Below are positions 4,394 through 51,515 of a stretch of DNA of 64,000 nt, piece after piece (position 1 is the stretch's first letter; every line of letters starts with the position of its first letter). A program made the position numbers and the translations under genes. The stretch lies in assembly GCF_900114035.1 (NCBI RefSeq), contig NZ_FORP01000001.1, positions 1 through 64,000 on the forward strand, given 5' to 3'. The notes beneath the pieces are model-generated. The model did not search any database. It was not told where the DNA came from and saw nothing but the letters and a program-made list of their open reading frames with translations. The stretch is from Amycolatopsis sacchari (lineage in GTDB: Bacteria; Actinomycetota; Actinomycetes; Mycobacteriales; Pseudonocardiaceae).

Positions 4394-4987
4394 ATGACGG
4401 GCAGGCGAGCGCTCATCCTGGCGGGTACCGGCATGCTGTCGGAGGTGGCGGAGGCGCTGGTCCGGGACGGCTGGCAGGTGGTGCTGCCGAGCCGTCGCTA
4501 CCAGCCGCTGTCGGTGCCCGAGAACCGGATGGGCGTCGCCGCCCTCAAGGCACTGCGGCCGCGCGGCCACGTGCCGACCCAGCGGCGCGAGCCCGGGCGC
4601 GCGCGATGGGTGGAGGCGCACTGGGACCGCCCGCGCGAGCTGGCCGCGAAGGCCGAGTCGGCCCTCGGCGGTCCGGCGGACCTGCTGGTGGCGTGGGTGC
4701 ACGAGCAGTACCGGCGTGCGGTGCTGGGCGCGTGTGAACGGCTGCTCGCGCCCGCGGCGCCGGTCGTCGAGGTCCGCGCCGTGGGCGGCCCGGAGGCGCC
4801 GGAGCCGCTGCTCGCCGCGCATCCCACGCAGCTCGTGCTGGCCGGCTCGCTGTCGGGGCTGCCGGGCAACCGCCCGCTGTCGCACACGGAGCTGAGCGGC
4901 GCCGTCCTGGAGGCGGTGTCCCGTGCGGTGGAGGGGCGCCCCGCGTCGCTGCACCAGGTCGGCCAGTCCCGCCCGCTGGTGCACTGA
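4394..4987 (+). CDS. Rossmann-like (SDR-related) hypothetical protein
   Basis: The 197-residue protein opens with RRALILAGTGMLSEVAEALV, a nucleotide-binding beta-alpha-beta start like that of short-chain dehydrogenase relatives. No YxxxK catalytic pair is visible, so an ordinary SDR reaction is unlikely. The C-terminal part (AAHPTQLVLAGSLSGLPGNRPLSHTELSGAVLEAV) resembles small conserved NAD(P)-binding proteins of unknown role. The gene converges on the TetR gene at 5696, and the 700 bp between contain degenerate copies of its own 3' end. Function not recognised. Confidence 0.7.
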   Translation: MTGRRALILAGTGMLSEVAEALVRDGWQVVLPSRRYQPLSVPENRMGVAALKALRPRGHVPTQRREPGRARWVEAHWDRPRELAAKAESALGGPADLLVAWVHEQYRRAVLGACERLLAPAAPVVEVRAVGGPEAPEPLLAAHPTQLVLAGSLSGLPGNRPLSHTELSGAVLEAVSRAVEGRPASLHQVGQSRPLVH

Positions 4988-39334: not shown

Positions 39335-39568
39335 GCCCCCGTCCCGCCGCGGACAGCTGATCCGGATGACGGCTGAATAACTGGTCGGGGCCGCCGCGCG
39401 TCGCGTTGACCAGTGGGGCCACCACGCTTACCGTCTAAGGCGGTAAATCGCCAAGGTGCAATTCCCCCCGGACCGGGGTGCACGCCGCGGTTCGCCGGCA
39501 GGGGTTCCGCTCCCGGGACCCCGGTGCTTGTTTCGACCGGCCGCCCGGCCGGGCGAGGGGAGGCATGC

Positions 39569-40135
39569 GTGGTCGACGAGAGGCCGATCAAGGCGGTCGA
39601 CGGAGAGCAGGGTGAGCTGTTCCCTGATTCGTCCCTGCCGGATGAGCTGGTCGGTTACCGGGGGCCCGCGGCCTGCCAGATCGCCGGGATCACCTACCGG
39701 CAGCTCGACTACTGGGCCCGCACGAAGCTCGTCGCCCCGAGCATCCGCACCGCGCACGGCTCGGGTTCCCAGCGCCTGTACTCCTTCAAGGACATCCTGG
39801 CGCTCAAGATCGTGAAGCGTTTACTGGACACGGGCGTCTCGCTGCAGAACATCAGGGTCGCGGTGGACCACCTGCGGGCCCGCGGGGTCGCCGACCTGGC
39901 GAAGGTGACGCTGGTGTCGGACGGCACCACCGTGTACGAGTGCACCTCGCCGGAGGAGATCGTCGATCTGCTGCAGGGCGGGCAGGGCGTGTTCGGCATC
40001 GCCGTGAAGGTCCCGATGCAGGAGATCAGCGGCACGATCCACGAGTTCCCGGCCGAGCGCGCCGACGGCGGGCACGTCGAAGCCGTCGTGCCGGACGAGC
40101 TGAGCCAGCGGCGCAACGCCCGCCGTACGGGCTGA
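39569..40135 (+). CDS. MerR-family regulator of the Rv1830 (McdR/ResR) type
   Basis: The 188-residue protein has an N-terminal MerR helix-turn-helix (GYRGPAACQIAGITYRQLDY, then WARTKLVAPSIRTAHGSGSQ, RLYSFKDILALKIVKRLL). The C-terminal domain includes YECTSPEEIVDLLQGGQGVF. It corresponds to Rv1830, a growth- and drug-resilience-linked regulator in mycobacteria. The GTG at 39569 follows GAGGGGAGG. The glycine riboswitch begins about 15-30 bp after its stop. Confidence 0.88.
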   Translation: MVDERPIKAVDGEQGELFPDSSLPDELVGYRGPAACQIAGITYRQLDYWARTKLVAPSIRTAHGSGSQRLYSFKDILALKIVKRLLDTGVSLQNIRVAVDHLRARGVADLAKVTLVSDGTTVYECTSPEEIVDLLQGGQGVFGIAVKVPMQEISGTIHEFPAERADGGHVEAVVPDELSQRRNARRTG

Positions 40136-40149
40136 AATTACCTGCGGGT

Positions 40150-40380
40150 AGTGTGAAGCCCGCAGTCGCCGAAGCCGCGCGGGAGAGACCGAGCCCCCAC
40201 CCGGGCCCGGCGCCGAAGGAGCAACTCCTCCCCGGAACCTCTCAGGCCCCCGGACCGCGCGGACGAGACGCCTCTGGAAAGTGGGTCCCGGCCACAACCC
40301 GGAACTCCGCCGACGGTGCAAGCCCGGCCCAACGCAACGGGTGAACCTCTCAGGCGCCTTCACGGCATGGACAGAGTGGG
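40150..40380 (+). ncRNA. Tandem glycine riboswitch
   Basis: Aptamer I has GCGGGAGAGACC, GCGCCGAAGGAGCAA, ACCTCTCAGGC, GGACCGC and GACGCCTCTGGAAAG. Aptamer II has CTCCGCCGACGGTGCAAGC, GTGAACCTCTCAGGCG, CCTTCACGGC and GGACAGAGTGGGG. Two CTCTCAGGC cores with a short linker are diagnostic of the paired glycine aptamers. The paired form usually precedes gcv genes. Here it is followed by an intact terminator and then a convergent gene. Confidence 0.93.
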
Positions 40381-40381
40381 G

Positions 40382-40421
40382 AGGCCCGGACACCAGCTTG
40401 GTGTCCGGGCCTGTTTCTTTT
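40382..40421 (+). terminator. Intrinsic terminator after the glycine riboswitch
   Basis: AGGCCCGGACACC, loop AGCTT, GGTGTCCGGGCCT: a perfect 13-bp stem followed by GTTTCTTTT on the plus strand only. It starts directly after the 3' end of aptamer II, so it could be the expression platform. Confidence 0.92.
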
Positions 40422-40427
40422 CCAGGC

Positions 40428-42353
40428 TCAGCCGCTGGTGAGCCCGGCCGCCTTGAAGTCGGCCTGCTGGGCGGGTTCCCGCAGGTAGTCGCGGAAGACC
40501 TGGGCCGCGCGGGCCTGCACCTCGTCCACCGTGGCACCGGCCAGCCCGAGGAACGGGTAGTCGGCGGAGGGGGCGTTGGCGACCGACTCGGCGGGGGAGC
40601 CGACCATGCCGGGTTTGGTGGTCTGCAGCTGGTCGACCCAGTAGGAGTTCTCGGGCACCCAGGCGGCGGGCAGGCCGCCGATGGCCGCGAGGTCGGCCTT
40701 GCCGGTCAGCGCGTCGAGGACCTGCTGGGACGGGATCGCCCGCACCTCGATGTGGACGCAGTGGGCGTGCACGACGGTGTTGGCCTGGTTCCACCGGTTC
40801 GCGGCGGCCTCGACGGGTTTCTGCGCGGTCGGCGTGACCACGACGGACATCGTCGAGTCGCCCTCGGTGCAGGCGTTGGCCTGGGCCTCGGCGCGGCTGT
40901 TGACGGTGTTGTTGGCCCAGCTCCAGCCCAGCAGCCCGACGACGAGCAGCACGACGAACACCCCGGCGACGATCGGCCACTTCGCGACCTTGCGGCGCCC
41001 GGCGACCTTGCCCATGGCGCGGTGCGTGCCGGTAGCGCTGCTGCGGCCCTCGGAGACGACGCGGTGGCCGCCCGTGGCGGTTGACCGGCCCTCGGAGACG
41101 ACGCGGTGGCTGCCCGTGGTGGTGGAGCGGCCCTCGGACACGGCGCGGTGGCTGCCGGTCGTCGTGGTGCGGTTCTCGCCGGTGTCGGTGGCGCGGACGG
41201 GGCGGTGGCTGCCGGTCGAGGTGGCGCGACCCTCGCGGGTGCGGAAGCCGCCCGTGGAGGTGGAGCGGCCTTCGGAGACGGCGGGGTGGTTGCCGCTTCG
41301 CGTGGCGCGGCCTTCGGTGGGGGTGCCGCCGACGGCGGGGTAGTTGCCGCTGCGCGTGGCGCGGCCTTCGCCCGCGGCGCGGAAGCTGCCGCTGCGCGTC
41401 GAGCGACCCTCGGTGCGGGAGCCGCCGATGGCGGGGAAGTTCCCGCTGCGGGTGGCCTGGCCTTCGGTGGGGGTGCTGCCGACGGCGGGGAAGTTGCCAC
41501 TGCGGGTGGTCTGGCCTTCGGTGGGGGTGCTGCCGATGGCGGGGAAGTTGCCGCTGCGGGTGGCGCGGCCTTCGGCGGGGGCGTCGCCGATGGCGGGGAA
41601 GTTCCCACTGCGGGTGGCCTGGCCTTCGGTGCGGGAGCCGCCGATGGCGGGGAAGTTCCCACTGCGGGTGGCGTGGCCCTCGGCCGGGTAGCCACCGCTG
41701 CGCGTGGCGCGGCCTTCCGTGGGGTGACTGCCGCTCCGCGTGGCGCGGCCCTCCGCGGCGGAGCCGCCGACCGCGGGGTAGTTCCCGCCGCGCGTCCCGC
41801 GGCCTCCGGTGCCATCTACTGCCGGGAAGTTCCCGCTACGAGCGCCCCTGCCTTCGCCGGGGGCGCCGTCCACCGCCGGGAAACCGCCGCTGCGCGTGGC
41901 GCGACGGTCCGTGGGGGAACCGCCGACCGGCGGAAAGCTGCCGCTGCGGGTGGCCCTGCCTTCACTAGGAGTGCCGCCTACCGCAGGGAAGTTCCCGCTG
42001 CGCGTGGCGCGGCCGGGCTCACCGAAGGCATTGAAGCCATCGGGCTCGTCGGCAGGCTCGGGGGCGGGGCGGCGGAGGCCGACCGTCGTGCGGTTGGCCT
42101 CGGAACGCCCTCCAGGCAAGGGAAAATCACCTTCGTCGGTCACCGCGGGGATCGTGCGCGTGCGCTCGTCGACGGGAGGAAGGGGGCGCTGCGGGCGGTT
42201 CAGCGCCGGCTGTCCAGGCCGCATCGGTGCCCGGCCGTACTGCGGCTGCCTCGGATGCGCGGCGTTGCCCGGTCCGCCCGCCGGCCGCCGCGGCTCCTGC
42301 GGTCGCTCAGGGAGGCGAGGAGCGGGATCGTCGTCCCGGCTGTGACGCCCCAT
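40428..42353 (-). CDS. Repeat-rich single-pass membrane protein with partial substrate-binding-like domain
   Basis: The 641-residue protein has a Pro/Arg-rich head. A long disordered region (about 114-445) is built of two repeat types: first ATRSGNFPAIGG-TPTEGQ units of about 18-20 residues, then SEGRSTTTGSHRVV units of 14. One membrane segment (WPIVAGVFVVLLVVGLLGWS, about 458-480) follows, and then an outer domain of about 160 residues. That domain (MSVVVTPTAQKPVEAAANRW, DLAAIGGLPAAWVPENSYWV) resembles the start of solute-binding-like domains, but looks shortened. Its 3' end faces the riboswitch. Confidence 0.8.
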   Translation of the reverse strand: MGRHSRDDDPAPRLPERPQEPRRPAGGPGNAAHPRQPQYGRAPMRPGQPALNRPQRPLPPVDERTRTIPAVTDEGDFPLPGGRSEANRTTVGLRRPAPEPADEPDGFNAFGEPGRATRSGNFPAVGGTPSEGRATRSGSFPPVGGSPTDRRATRSGGFPAVDGAPGEGRGARSGNFPAVDGTGGRGTRGGNYPAVGGSAAEGRATRSGSHPTEGRATRSGGYPAEGHATRSGNFPAIGGSRTEGQATRSGNFPAIGDAPAEGRATRSGNFPAIGSTPTEGQTTRSGNFPAVGSTPTEGQATRSGNFPAIGGSRTEGRSTRSGSFRAAGEGRATRSGNYPAVGGTPTEGRATRSGNHPAVSEGRSTSTGGFRTREGRATSTGSHRPVRATDTGENRTTTTGSHRAVSEGRSTTTGSHRVVSEGRSTATGGHRVVSEGRSSATGTHRAMGKVAGRRKVAKWPIVAGVFVVLLVVGLLGWSWANNTVNSRAEAQANACTEGDSTMSVVVTPTAQKPVEAAANRWNQANTVVHAHCVHIEVRAIPSQQVLDALTGKADLAAIGGLPAAWVPENSYWVDQLQTTKPGMVGSPAESVANAPSADYPFLGLAGATVDEVQARAAQVFRDYLREPAQQADFKAAGLTSG

Positions 42354-47214: not shown

Positions 47215-48468
47215 ATGACCACGGTTCGCCACGTCCCGGGGCCCGCCGGAGGTGCGAACGGAGTGGCCGCGAAGGTCGTCTCCGATCGTGCCGCCGGCGA
47301 AGCCTACGTCGCGTCGGTGTGCTTCAAGCACGGCCCTCCGAGACTGCTGGGGGTCGAGCTGGAGTACACCGTCCACTACGCCGACGATCCCCGGAAACCA
47401 CTGCAGGCCCCCGATCTCGCCCGTGCGCTCGGCGCGCACGCGCCCAGCACGCTCGTCCCCGGCAGCCCCGCGCTGCCGCTGCCCGCCGGTTCGCCGCTCA
47501 CCCTCGAACCGGGCGGCCAGGTGGAGATCTCCGCGCTCCCGCAGGAATCGCTGCGGGACCTCGACCGCGTCGTCTCCGCCGATCTCACCTACCTGACCGA
47601 TCTGCTCGCCCGCGCCGGGTTCGCCCTCGGCGAAACGGGGATCGACCCGTTCCGCCCGCCGGCCCGGCTGCTCACCACTCCGCGCTACGCCACCATGGAG
47701 CGCCGGTTCGCCCCGCTGGGGCCGGGCGGCATCACCATGATGTGCAGCACCGCCGGGCTGCAGATCTGCGTCGACAGCGGGGAAAGCGACGAACTGCCCG
47801 CCCGCTGGGCGGCCGTGCACGCGCTCGGCCCGCCGCTGCTGGCCCTGTTCGCCAACTCGCCGCGGCACGCGGGCCGGGACACCGGCCTGGCGTCGGCGCG
47901 CTGGCAGGCGGTGCTCGACACCGAGCACGCCCGCACGTTCGCCACGCCGCCGTCGGACGATCCGCCCGCGACGTGGGCCCGGCGCATGATGGACACCCCG
48001 TTGTTGCTGGTGCGGCGGCAGGACGGGCCGTGGGACGCGCCGGACGGGCTCACCTTCGCCGACTGGGTGGCCGGGCGGGGCGCCGCGGGGCTGCTCGCCC
48101 CGCCGACGACGGACGACCTCGACTACCACCTCACGACGATGTTCACCCCGGTGCGCCCGCACGGCTACCTGGAGGTGCGCTACCTGGACGCGCAGCCGGG
48201 CGACCGCTGGCTGCACCCGGTGGCACTGCTGACCGCACTGCTCGCCCGTCCCTCCACTGTGGACGAGGTACTGGCGCTGTGCGAACCCGTCCCCGACGCG
48301 TGGGAGCGCGCCGCGCGCGACGGGCTGCGTGACCGCGAGATCGCCGCGGTGGCGCGGAAAGTGGCGGACCTGGGCTGTGCGCACCTGCCGGCCACGGGGC
48401 TGCCGCCCGGAAAGATCCACGAGATCAGCGACGGCGTGCAGCGGCTGGTGCACGCCGGAAGGGGATGA
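47215..48468 (+). CDS. egtA: Glutamate-cysteine ligase EgtA (ergothioneine pathway)
   Basis: The 417-residue protein makes gamma-glutamylcysteine, the sulfur donor of ergothioneine. It has the GCS2-like core LLGVELEYTVHYADD, LEPGGQVEISALPQESLRDL, ERRFAPLGPGGITMMCSTAG and HGYLEVRYLDAQPGDRW. It heads egtABCD, with a 4-bp overlap to egtB. ATG at 47215. Confidence 0.93.
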   Translation: MTTVRHVPGPAGGANGVAAKVVSDRAAGEAYVASVCFKHGPPRLLGVELEYTVHYADDPRKPLQAPDLARALGAHAPSTLVPGSPALPLPAGSPLTLEPGGQVEISALPQESLRDLDRVVSADLTYLTDLLARAGFALGETGIDPFRPPARLLTTPRYATMERRFAPLGPGGITMMCSTAGLQICVDSGESDELPARWAAVHALGPPLLALFANSPRHAGRDTGLASARWQAVLDTEHARTFATPPSDDPPATWARRMMDTPLLLVRRQDGPWDAPDGLTFADWVAGRGAAGLLAPPTTDDLDYHLTTMFTPVRPHGYLEVRYLDAQPGDRWLHPVALLTALLARPSTVDEVLALCEPVPDAWERAARDGLRDREIAAVARKVADLGCAHLPATGLPPGKIHEISDGVQRLVHAGRG

Positions 48469-49820
48469 CCGACGTGACCGAGATCCTGACCGAGGCCCCG
48501 AGCGGGTTCGAGGAACGCAGCGCCGAGCAGCTGCGTGACCACGCGGCGCTGGCGCTCACCCGCGCGCGGGAGCGGAGCACCGCGCTGACCGACGCGGTGG
48601 ACGACGAGGACCTGGTGCGCCAGCACTCGAAGCTGATGTCCCCGCTGGTGTGGGACCTCGCGCACATCGGCAGCCAGGAAGAGCTCTGGCTGGTGCGGGA
48701 CGTCGGCGGCCGCGAGCCGCTGCGGCCCGACATCGACGACCTGTACGACGCCTTCCAGCACCCCCGCGCGGACCGGCCCTCGCTGCCGCTGCTCGGGCCC
48801 GCCGAGGCGCGCCAGTACGTGGGCGAGGTGCGGGCGAAGGCGTTCGAGGTGCTGGAAAAGGCGCCGCTGAGCGGGCGCAGGCTCACCGAGGCGGCGTTCG
48901 CGTTCGGCATGATCACCCAGCACGAGCAGCAGCACGACGAGACGATGCTGGCCACCCACCAGCTCCGCCGGGGCGAGCCCGTGCTGCACGCGCCGGCCGC
49001 GCCGGGCCGCCGCACGGGCTCGCTGCCCGAAGAGGTGCTGGTGCCCGGCGGGCCGTTCCTGATGGGCACGAGCGTCGAACCGTGGGCGCTGGACAACGAG
49101 CGGCCCGCGCACGAGGTCGACGTGCCCGCGTTCTTCATCGACACCACGCCGGTCACCAACGGGCAGTACTTCGAGTTCCTCGACGCCGGTGGCTACGACC
49201 AGCGCCGGTGGTGGAGCGACGCGGGCTGGGAGTACCGCACCGCGCACGACATCACGGCGCCCCGGTTCTGGCGGCGGGAGCCCGGCGGGTGGTGGCGCAC
49301 GAGGTTCGGCGTCCACGAGCCCGTGCCCGCCGACCAGCCGGTGGTGCACGTGTCGTTCTACGAGGCCGAGGCGTACGCGAGGTGGGCGGGCAAGCGGCTG
49401 CCCACCGAAGCCGAGTGGGAGAAGGCCGCCCGCTGGGACCCGGCGACCGGGCAGTCGCGGCGGTACCCGTGGGGCAACGAGGACCCGAAGCCGGAGCACG
49501 CCAACCTCGGCCAGGTCCACCTGAGCCCGGCGGCGGCGGGTGCGTACCCGGCGGGAGCCTCGGCGCTCGGGGTGCACCAGCTGATCGGCGACGTCTGGGA
49601 GTGGACGAGCAGCGACTTCGCGGGGTACCCGGGGTTCGCCGCGTTCCCGTACCGCGAGTACTCGGAGGTCTTCTTCGGACCGGAGTACAAGGTGCTGCGG
49701 GGCGGCTCGTTCGGCACGGACGCGGCGGCGATCCGCGGCACGTTCCGCAACTGGGACTACCCGATCCGGCGGCAGATCTTCTCCGGGTTCCGCTGCGCGA
49801 GGGACGCCGAGGGTGTGTAG
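48465..49820 (+). CDS. egtB: Hercynine oxygenase EgtB
   Basis: The 451-residue iron enzyme joins hercynine and gamma-glutamylcysteine as a sulfoxide. The N-terminal DinB-like part has LMSPLVWDLAHIGSQEELWL and ITQHEQQHDETMLATHQL (metal-ligand His). The C-terminal FGE-sulfatase domain has VPGGPFLMGTS, RLPTEAEWEKAARWDPATG, DVWEWTSSDF and LRGGSFGTD. The egtC GTG begins 8 bp before its stop. Confidence 0.96.
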   Translation: MTDVTEILTEAPSGFEERSAEQLRDHAALALTRARERSTALTDAVDDEDLVRQHSKLMSPLVWDLAHIGSQEELWLVRDVGGREPLRPDIDDLYDAFQHPRADRPSLPLLGPAEARQYVGEVRAKAFEVLEKAPLSGRRLTEAAFAFGMITQHEQQHDETMLATHQLRRGEPVLHAPAAPGRRTGSLPEEVLVPGGPFLMGTSVEPWALDNERPAHEVDVPAFFIDTTPVTNGQYFEFLDAGGYDQRRWWSDAGWEYRTAHDITAPRFWRREPGGWWRTRFGVHEPVPADQPVVHVSFYEAEAYARWAGKRLPTEAEWEKAARWDPATGQSRRYPWGNEDPKPEHANLGQVHLSPAAAGAYPAGASALGVHQLIGDVWEWTSSDFAGYPGFAAFPYREYSEVFFGPEYKVLRGGSFGTDAAAIRGTFRNWDYPIRRQIFSGFRCARDAEGV

Positions 49821-50571
49821 GCACCTCGCGTACCTCGGACCGCCGGTCTCGCCTGCCGAGCTGGTGTTCGGCGCGCCGCATTCGCTGCTGCACCAGTCTT
49901 ACGCGCCCGCGGACATGCGGGGCGGCGGCACGGTGAACGCCGACGGCTTCGGCTTCGCGTGGTACAGCGGCGGCACGCCGGTGCGGTACCGGCGGGCGAG
50001 TCCGATTTGGACGGACGACGACGCGCCCGTGCTCGCCGGGTCGGTGCGCTCGGGCGCGTTCGTGGCGGCGGTGCGCAACGGCACGGTCGGGATGCCGCTG
50101 GCGGAGGGCGCGTGCGCGCCCTTCGTCGACGGGCCGTGGGCGTTCAGCCACAACGGGCGGGTCACCGGCTGGCCCGGCTCGCTCACCGCGCTGGCGGGCA
50201 AGCTGCCGGTCGCCGACCTGCTCACGCTGGAGGCGCCCACGGATTCCGCCGTGCTGTGGGCGCTGCTGCGGGAGCGGCTGCGGGCGGGGGAGCACCCGGT
50301 GCAGGCCGTCACCGACCTCGTCCTGCGCACCGAACGGGCCGCGCCCGGTTCGCGGCTCAACCTGCTGCTCACCGACGGCGAGACCCTGGTGGCCACCGCC
50401 TGGACCCACGCGCTGTCGTACCGGGTGCGCGACGGGGCGGTGGTGGTCGCCTCCGAACCGACCGATCCCGGCCCGGACTGGACACCGGTGCCCGAAGGCC
50501 ACGCCGTCGTCGCGCGCGCCGGCGCGGCCGACCTCATCCCCCTCGACGCTGATCGGAGTGCCCTGTCATGA
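49813..50571 (+). CDS. egtC: Gamma-glutamyl hercynylcysteine sulfoxide hydrolase EgtC
   Basis: The 252-residue class II glutamine amidotransferase-type protein has the catalytic Cys at residue 2 (M-C-R-H-L-A-Y-L-G) and a GPWAFSHNGRVTGWPG motif. It removes the glutamate from the EgtB product. The GTG start at 49813 overlaps egtB and is fixed by the need for an N-terminal Cys. Confidence 0.95.
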   Translation: MCRHLAYLGPPVSPAELVFGAPHSLLHQSYAPADMRGGGTVNADGFGFAWYSGGTPVRYRRASPIWTDDDAPVLAGSVRSGAFVAAVRNGTVGMPLAEGACAPFVDGPWAFSHNGRVTGWPGSLTALAGKLPVADLLTLEAPTDSAVLWALLRERLRAGEHPVQAVTDLVLRTERAAPGSRLNLLLTDGETLVATAWTHALSYRVRDGAVVVASEPTDPGPDWTPVPEGHAVVARAGAADLIPLDADRSALS

Positions 50572-51515
50572 GCGACCGCGCGGAAGCCCTGCGCACCGAC
50601 GTCCGGTCCGGATTCTCGGCGGCGCAGAAGTGGTTGCCCGCCAAGTGGTTCTACGACGCCCGCGGCAGCGCGTTGTTCGAGGACATCACCAGGCTGCCGG
50701 AGTACTACCCGACGCGGGCCGAACGCGAGACGCTGGCCCGCGAGGCGGGTGAGATCGCCCGCGTCACCGGCGCCAGCACGCTCGTCGAGCTGGGGTCCGG
50801 GTCGAGCGAGAAGACCCGCCTGCTGCTCGACGGCCTGCGTGCCCACGGCACGCTGCGCACGTTCGTGCCGCTGGACGTGTCGGCCTCGGCGCTCGACGAG
50901 GCGGTGGCCGCGATCCGGGCCGACTACCCCGGTCTGGAGGTGCACGGCGTCGTCGGCGACTTCACCGAGGACCTCGGCCTGCTGCCCGGTGAGCCGCCGC
51001 GGCTCGTCGCGTTCCTCGGCGGCACGATCGGCAACTTCCTGCCCGCCGAGCGGATCAAGTTCCTCCGCTCGGTCCGGGCCGTGCTGGCCGAGGGGGAGTG
51101 GCTGCTGCTGGGCACCGACCTCGTCAAGGACCCGGAGACGCTGGTGCGCGCCTACGACGACGCGGCCGGGGTGACCGCCGAGTTCAACCGGAACATGCTG
51201 CGCGTGGTGAACGACCTGCTCGGCGCCGACTTCGACCCGGGCGGGTTCGCGCACGAGGCGTACTGGGACGCCGAGCGCGAGTGGATCGAGATGCGGCTGC
51301 GGGCCACGGAGGAGACGACCGTGCACATCCCCGGCGCGGGGATGACGGTGCACTTCGCCGAGGGCGAGTACATCCGCACGGAGATCTCGGCGAAGTTCCG
51401 GGCCGGTGGTGTCGCGGCCGAGCTGGCGGAGAGCGGCTTCGCGGTGGAACGCTGGTGGACCGACGCGGAACGCCGCTTCGGGGTGTCCCTGTCCAGGGCG
51501 GTTCGTGAGGGGTGA
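50568..51515 (+). CDS. egtD: L-histidine N(alpha)-methyltransferase EgtD
   Basis: The 315-residue SAM-dependent enzyme trimethylates histidine to hercynine. It has LPAKWFYDARGSALFEDITR (DUF2260-type start), motif I TLVELGSGSSEKTRLLLDGL, VPLDVSASALDEAVAAI and LVAFLGGTIGNFLPAER. ATG overlaps egtC by 4 bp. No egtE C-S lyase follows. Confidence 0.96.
   Translation: MSDRAEALRTDVRSGFSAAQKWLPAKWFYDARGSALFEDITRLPEYYPTRAERETLAREAGEIARVTGASTLVELGSGSSEKTRLLLDGLRAHGTLRTFVPLDVSASALDEAVAAIRADYPGLEVHGVVGDFTEDLGLLPGEPPRLVAFLGGTIGNFLPAERIKFLRSVRAVLAEGEWLLLGTDLVKDPETLVRAYDDAAGVTAEFNRNMLRVVNDLLGADFDPGGFAHEAYWDAEREWIEMRLRATEETTVHIPGAGMTVHFAEGEYIRTEISAKFRAGGVAAELAESGFAVERWWTDAERRFGVSLSRAVREG

Follow-up and report, generated by a model that had tools for sequence, protein, structure and literature searches.

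Results

The window, the whole stretch of 64,000 nucleotides from Amycolatopsis sacchari that was analysed, contains a tandem glycine riboswitch that has lost its cognate gene, gcvP1, and has been retained throughout its genus under no measurably weaker constraint than switches that still precede a gene. We see about an even chance that this orphan is kept as a stand-alone glycine-binding noncoding RNA, perhaps one that acts in trans.

The orphan switch in the window

The switch is located on the plus strand, downstream of a gene for a merR-type regulator (39413..40135; PF13411, 50.5 bits, start codon uncertain) that is its fixed upstream neighbour in the family. Glycine aptamer 1 (40170..40267) scores 52.2 bits against RF00504 and aptamer 2 (40264..40384) 47.1 bits, both above the gathering cut-off of 32 bits, and the two aptamers of the preliminary description are thereby confirmed as a tandem RF00504 architecture. 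The second was missed by cmscan and recovered by an RF00504 search of the whole genome. According to the consensus fold, the leader (40165..40174) pairs with the inter-aptamer linker near 40269-40274, and the columns of this helix (helix 1) are conserved. The P1 stem of aptamer 2, CTCTG (40272-40276) with CAGAG (40372-40376), is invariant in all 19 genomes of the genus, and GTGGGGAGG (40376-40384) in the same aptamer is also invariant. Upstream, TAGTGT at 40149..40154 is the presumed -10 box of the switch's own promoter, recognised by the spacing of TANNNT to CGGGAGAG.

Behind aptamer 2, on the same strand, a G+C-rich hairpin of 14 pairs (40382..40412) is followed by GTTTCTTTT (6 T in 8), with a T-rich tail to 40421. 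In the window this is a full intrinsic terminator, as first described, but the T-tract is not a general trait: it is found in the window and two or three relatives, and most of the 19 genomes have the hairpin without it. Between 40421 and egtA at 47215 no recognisable sense gene was found over 6.8 kb, and egtA (EgtA model, 364 bits) is indeed the next plus-strand gene, as had been noted. It opens an ergothioneine cluster, egtA-egtB-egtC-egtD (47215-51515, plus strand), and its score is just below the model cut-off.

The convergent open reading frame at 40428..42353 on the minus strand exists and is repeat-rich, as reported, and would encode a membrane protein; it is a neighbour, probably outside the system. 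Its product has no match in Pfam or NCBIfam. Degenerate tandem repeats occupy 41044-41850 (minus strand), with a 54-bp unit in about eight copies plus others, and encode ATRSGNFPAVGG...EGR-like units.

Loss of gcvP1 from the merR locus

The window genome (7.59 Mb) belongs to a genus of 19 genomes, g1. Eleven of these agree letter for letter with named Amycolatopsis records across 200 nt of the orphan switch (A. deserti, A. thermalba, A. taiwanensis, A. rhizosphaerae, A. acidicola, A. alkalitolerans, A. acididurans, A. tucumanensis, A. pithecellobii, A. bartoniae and strain GM8), and the species names used here rest on this identity.

Upstream of the switch is a cluster of gcvH, a gene for an FHA protein, merR, a bifunctional nuclease gene and a second merR. 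The merR of this locus is present in all 151 genomes of the family. We sampled 60 regions downstream of it from 46 other genera; in 50 of them gcvP follows in sense, preceded by tandem switch motifs in 47. The order merR - switch - gcvP1 is therefore ancestral, and the expectation that a gcv gene belongs at this position was well founded. The opposite case, gcvP after merR with the aptamer motif missing, occurs in regions L109 and L110 (genus g3) and L064 (genome G059), and an RF00504 search of the six g3 genomes gave no match at all.

In the sister genus g16 the locus reads merR - switch - gcvP1, followed by a convergent SnoaL-like gene and an aldo/keto reductase gene in sense. In g1 it reads merR - switch - hairpin, followed by the same two genes and then by the convergent repeat-rich gene. 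The sole difference between the two orders is gcvP1, which is absent from the merR locus in all 19 g1 genomes; the comparison places its removal between the hairpin and the stop codon of SnoaL.

The only gcvP of the window genome lies on a different contig (C58), immediately downstream of a tandem switch of its own. The same holds across the genus: every g1 genome has gcvP away from the merR locus, with a tandem-switch leader. Two types of gcvP can be told apart by their identity to that of the window genome, gcvP1 at merR with 63-72% in most genera and gcvP2 with 78-85% outside g1. Both are carried by g16 and g21, as would be expected of an intermediate state. Genome G086, for example, has two complete gcvP genes (C1:2680925 and C1:5568922), where the copy at merR is about 69% and the second type about 84% identical.

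Only gcvP2 is found in g1, g10, g15, g25, g34, g42 and g45. Of these, g15, g25, g34, g42 and g45 lost the switch at the merR locus along with gcvP1, and it was therefore dispensable there. Besides g1, it stayed after the loss of gcvP1 in g10 (one genome) and in Amycolatopsis suaedae (L177), where SnoaL is next. A second genus, represented by one genome (L065 of G009, 4798-4897 and following, minus strand), has a merR-linked switch without gcvP within 5 kb.

A tree of the 2-kb upstream region unites g1 and g16 at 1.0, and it resolves one subclade of 9 genomes (1.0) and another of 10 (0.98). The monophyly of g1 itself is weak (0.16), therefore gcvP1 may have been lost twice and the orphan then kept twice.

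Retention and constraint of the orphan

The orphan is present in all 19 genomes of g1. Aptamer 1 is reported by cmscan in every one of them, while aptamer 2 exceeds the cut-off of the whole-genome search in 14 and can be aligned in all 19. The mean pairwise distance between the orphans is 0.100, compared with 0.36 at the fourfold-degenerate sites of merR in the same genomes, and 149 of the 204 ungapped columns are invariant, spanning both aptamer cores, the P1 of aptamer 2 and most of the leader. Relative to merR fourfold sites the divergence is 0.28 for the orphan, 0.26 for the gcvP1-linked switches of g16 and 0.23 for the gcvP2-linked switches of g1, and loss of the gene has therefore not measurably relaxed the constraint.

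The consensus fold restores the tandem architecture; 97.8% of its cells are paired, and 12 pairs show compensatory double changes. No shuffled alignment out of 500 reached these values, a somewhat favourable comparison as the structure was derived from the same alignment. The 3' hairpin is found in all 19 genomes, with five compensating pairs.

In all 19 orphans a TANNNT box precedes CGGGAGAG by 30-31 nt, whereas none of them has one at any of six shifted positions. Its spacing stays fixed while the distance from the merR stop codon to the switch varies from 47 to 217 nt. Comparable boxes precede 46 of the 55 leaders in the family, and the orphan therefore appears to have kept the old gcvP1 promoter.

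This box bears on whether the switch is instead a 3' UTR element, co-transcribed with gcvH-FHA-merR-nuclease-merR and setting a glycine-dependent 3' end or mRNA stability. Such an element would fit a switch that begins so soon after the merR stop codon and a cluster that includes gcvH. However, the switch retains a promoter box of its own, and the same upstream cluster persists without any switch in g15, g25, g34, g42 and g45. We consider this explanation unlikely.

We find it equally improbable that the element is a relic, or a mere terminator between merR and the convergent gene, that survived the loss of gcvP1 by chance. Its cognate gene is gone, several related genera lost the switch together with gcvP1, and single lesions occur in the window copy, where P2 of aptamer 2 is weakened, and in the copy of genome G159, which has a change in the core of aptamer 1. 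The survival in 19 of 19 genomes, the ratio of 0.28, the compensatory changes and the fixed TANNNT box nevertheless argue against a decaying relic. A role as terminator would constrain the hairpin alone, but the invariant columns also lie on both ligand-binding cores and P1. The preliminary description had offered a relic left by loss or movement of gcvP: gcvP1 was indeed lost here, and gcvP2 lies elsewhere with its own switch, but the relic itself does not agree with a constraint equal to that of gene-linked switches. The pattern of conservation suggests that the orphan RNA is retained by selection and probably has a new role.

The hairpin and the aptamers

In the glycine switch of Bacillus subtilis, an ON switch, the terminator competes with the aptamer (PMC5666159). 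In the orphan the hairpin has no sequence or base in common with the P1 of aptamer 2. Its pairing probability in the window, according to thermodynamic prediction, is 0.97 when P1 is forced and 0.97 when the 3' strand of P1 is kept unpaired. With the same type of prediction it is at least 0.84 in all 19 orphans with P1 forced, and at least 0.85 in 18 of 19 unconstrained. Genomes G162 and G093 have alternative folds, but there the hairpin gains when P1 forms, contrary to what an ON switch would do. Mutual exclusion of hairpin and P1, as expected for attenuation in cis, was thus not predicted in the 19 orphans. At a mean of -27.6 kcal/mol the orphan hairpin is also stronger than the equivalent hairpin of the g16 leaders, at about -20 to -24 kcal/mol. 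Given its strength and its predicted formation regardless of P1, the 3' end is probably constitutive, and the models lend no support to read-through under the control of glycine.

Could the hairpin be the inherited terminator of gcvP1? This was ruled out: in g16 the stop codons of gcvP1 and SnoaL are only a few bases apart. The hairpin derives from the leader. Two candidates for a hidden short reading frame were rejected by eye on the aligned sequences, an ATG in GGCATGGACAG that only some genomes have, and a GTG in AGAGTGGGG that is without a suitable ribosome site and whose frame enters the indel-rich hairpin. A switch serving the aldo/keto reductase was rejected as well; this gene is next in two species only, and in G158 a hairpin with a T run lies between.

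Downstream neighbours

In 16 of the 19 genomes the switch is followed by a convergent SnoaL-like gene, and in two by the aldo/keto reductase gene in sense; the window genome alone has the repeat-rich gene there. G158 and G159, which are not sisters on the 2-kb tree, each lack SnoaL and have the aldo/keto reductase next. The window genome lacks both, and the gene at 40428-42353 is therefore a newcomer at this position. Read from the gene orders, three later deletions reached as far as the hairpin and spared the switch.

In the mechanism proposed earlier, glycine would let transcription pass the terminator, and the resulting RNA would be antisense to the gene at 40428-42353. The convergent gene does end about 20-45 nt from the hairpin in 17 of 19 genomes; however, its identity is inconstant, SnoaL is convergent to merR without any switch in g15, g42 and g45, and pairing of the terminator and of the aptamer is not mutually exclusive, which makes this explanation very improbable.

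Discussion

The proposed mechanism starts with the loss of gcvP1 in an ancestor of this Amycolatopsis clade, in which its switch stayed. From its own putative promoter, transcription would run through the leader, aptamer 1, the linker and aptamer 2, and the RNA would end about 250 nt on, at the predicted constitutive hairpin. As both cores are conserved, the orphan RNA should still bind glycine, and binding may alter its shape, stability or accessibility. With neither a reading frame nor a terminator under the control of the switch, the RNA cannot exert its effect by read-through into any one gene. We would guess that the altered RNA works in trans, with a different RNA or a protein as its target, which we rank as the most likely output, with an effect on the 3' end of the merR transcript second. 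The alignment of the 19 orphans showed no conserved seed, specific to the orphan, with which it could base-pair in trans. The full scenario, in which a gcvP1 leader whose gene was made redundant by a second gcvP became a free-standing sRNA gene with its own promoter and terminator, sensing glycine and regulating in trans, is one we put forward tentatively and hold to be somewhat doubtful.

The orphan shares the two aptamers, the leader-linker pairing and the cores with the tandem RF00504 switches before gcvP or gcvT operons, as in Streptomyces griseus and Bacillus subtilis (PMC5666159). A promoter-like box of its own and a hairpin behind aptamer 2 are likewise common to both, and the homology to the gcvP1 leader of g16 is clear. 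Unlike these switches it has no gene behind it, its hairpin lies off P1, and the terminator competition of B. subtilis is absent.

The SAM riboswitches SreA and SreB of Listeria act in trans on the prfA mRNA (PMC8079631). The orphan would resemble them if it is a terminated riboswitch RNA of 200-250 nt that may act elsewhere, and the promoter-like box and end hairpin kept in all 19 genomes would fit a separate short transcript of the SreA type, as far as sequence can tell. However, SreA has an operon of its own that it still regulates, and it becomes free through ligand-dependent termination (PMC8079631), whereas the orphan has no operon and a constitutive-looking end. That the orphan may work like SreA is an analogy and a lead only.

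In Listeria, the AspocR cobalamin switch controls an RNA antisense to pocR, and the ligand stops this RNA (PMC8079631). The preliminary description likened the window to this arrangement, and a riboswitch followed by a convergent gene is indeed common to both. The likeness does not extend to a constant convergent target, as three different genes come next among the 19 genomes, and by prediction the switch does not control the terminator.

Barrick and Breaker (2007) described aptamers that stand alone, with no cognate gene; they suggested either action in trans or recent orphaning, with the aptamer dying out, and did not decide between the two (PMC2258182). The orphan resembles them in looking functional while not being upstream of genes for the cognate metabolite. 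It goes beyond these cases in that its loss of the gene can be placed on a tree and the constraint is genus-wide, and this speaks against a pseudo-regulatory sequence that was orphaned only recently. The known isolated aptamers thus gain a case in which the orphaning has a phylogenetic position and the constraint has continued. In the literature we found no paper that combines Amycolatopsis and the glycine riboswitch.

Living relatives still show all three stages, the ancestral switch linked to its gene, the coexistence of two gcvP genes and the orphan, and they reveal the order of events: gcvP2 joins gcvP1, gcvP1 is lost, and the switch stays. Riboswitch matches without a sensible gene are usually dismissed as relics or annotation noise. 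Here the surviving orphan is as constrained as working switches, and the question can therefore be put to the test in named species such as A. tucumanensis, A. thermalba and A. bartoniae, against the gcvP1-linked sister genus as a control. Should the RNA prove to act in trans, glycine would have its equivalent of SreA, and the locus would document how a riboswitch can give rise to an sRNA gene.

Other glycine switches of these genomes were noted in passing. In the gcvP2 leaders L005 and L144-L161, GGGAGUUCCC faces GAGGAGCUCCCGAUG and could sequester the ribosome site, which by eye gives them the look of a translational switch. G065, G093 and G162 have a third tandem glycine switch in addition to the orphan and the one before gcvP2, for example at G093:C1:394665-394849 (L135).
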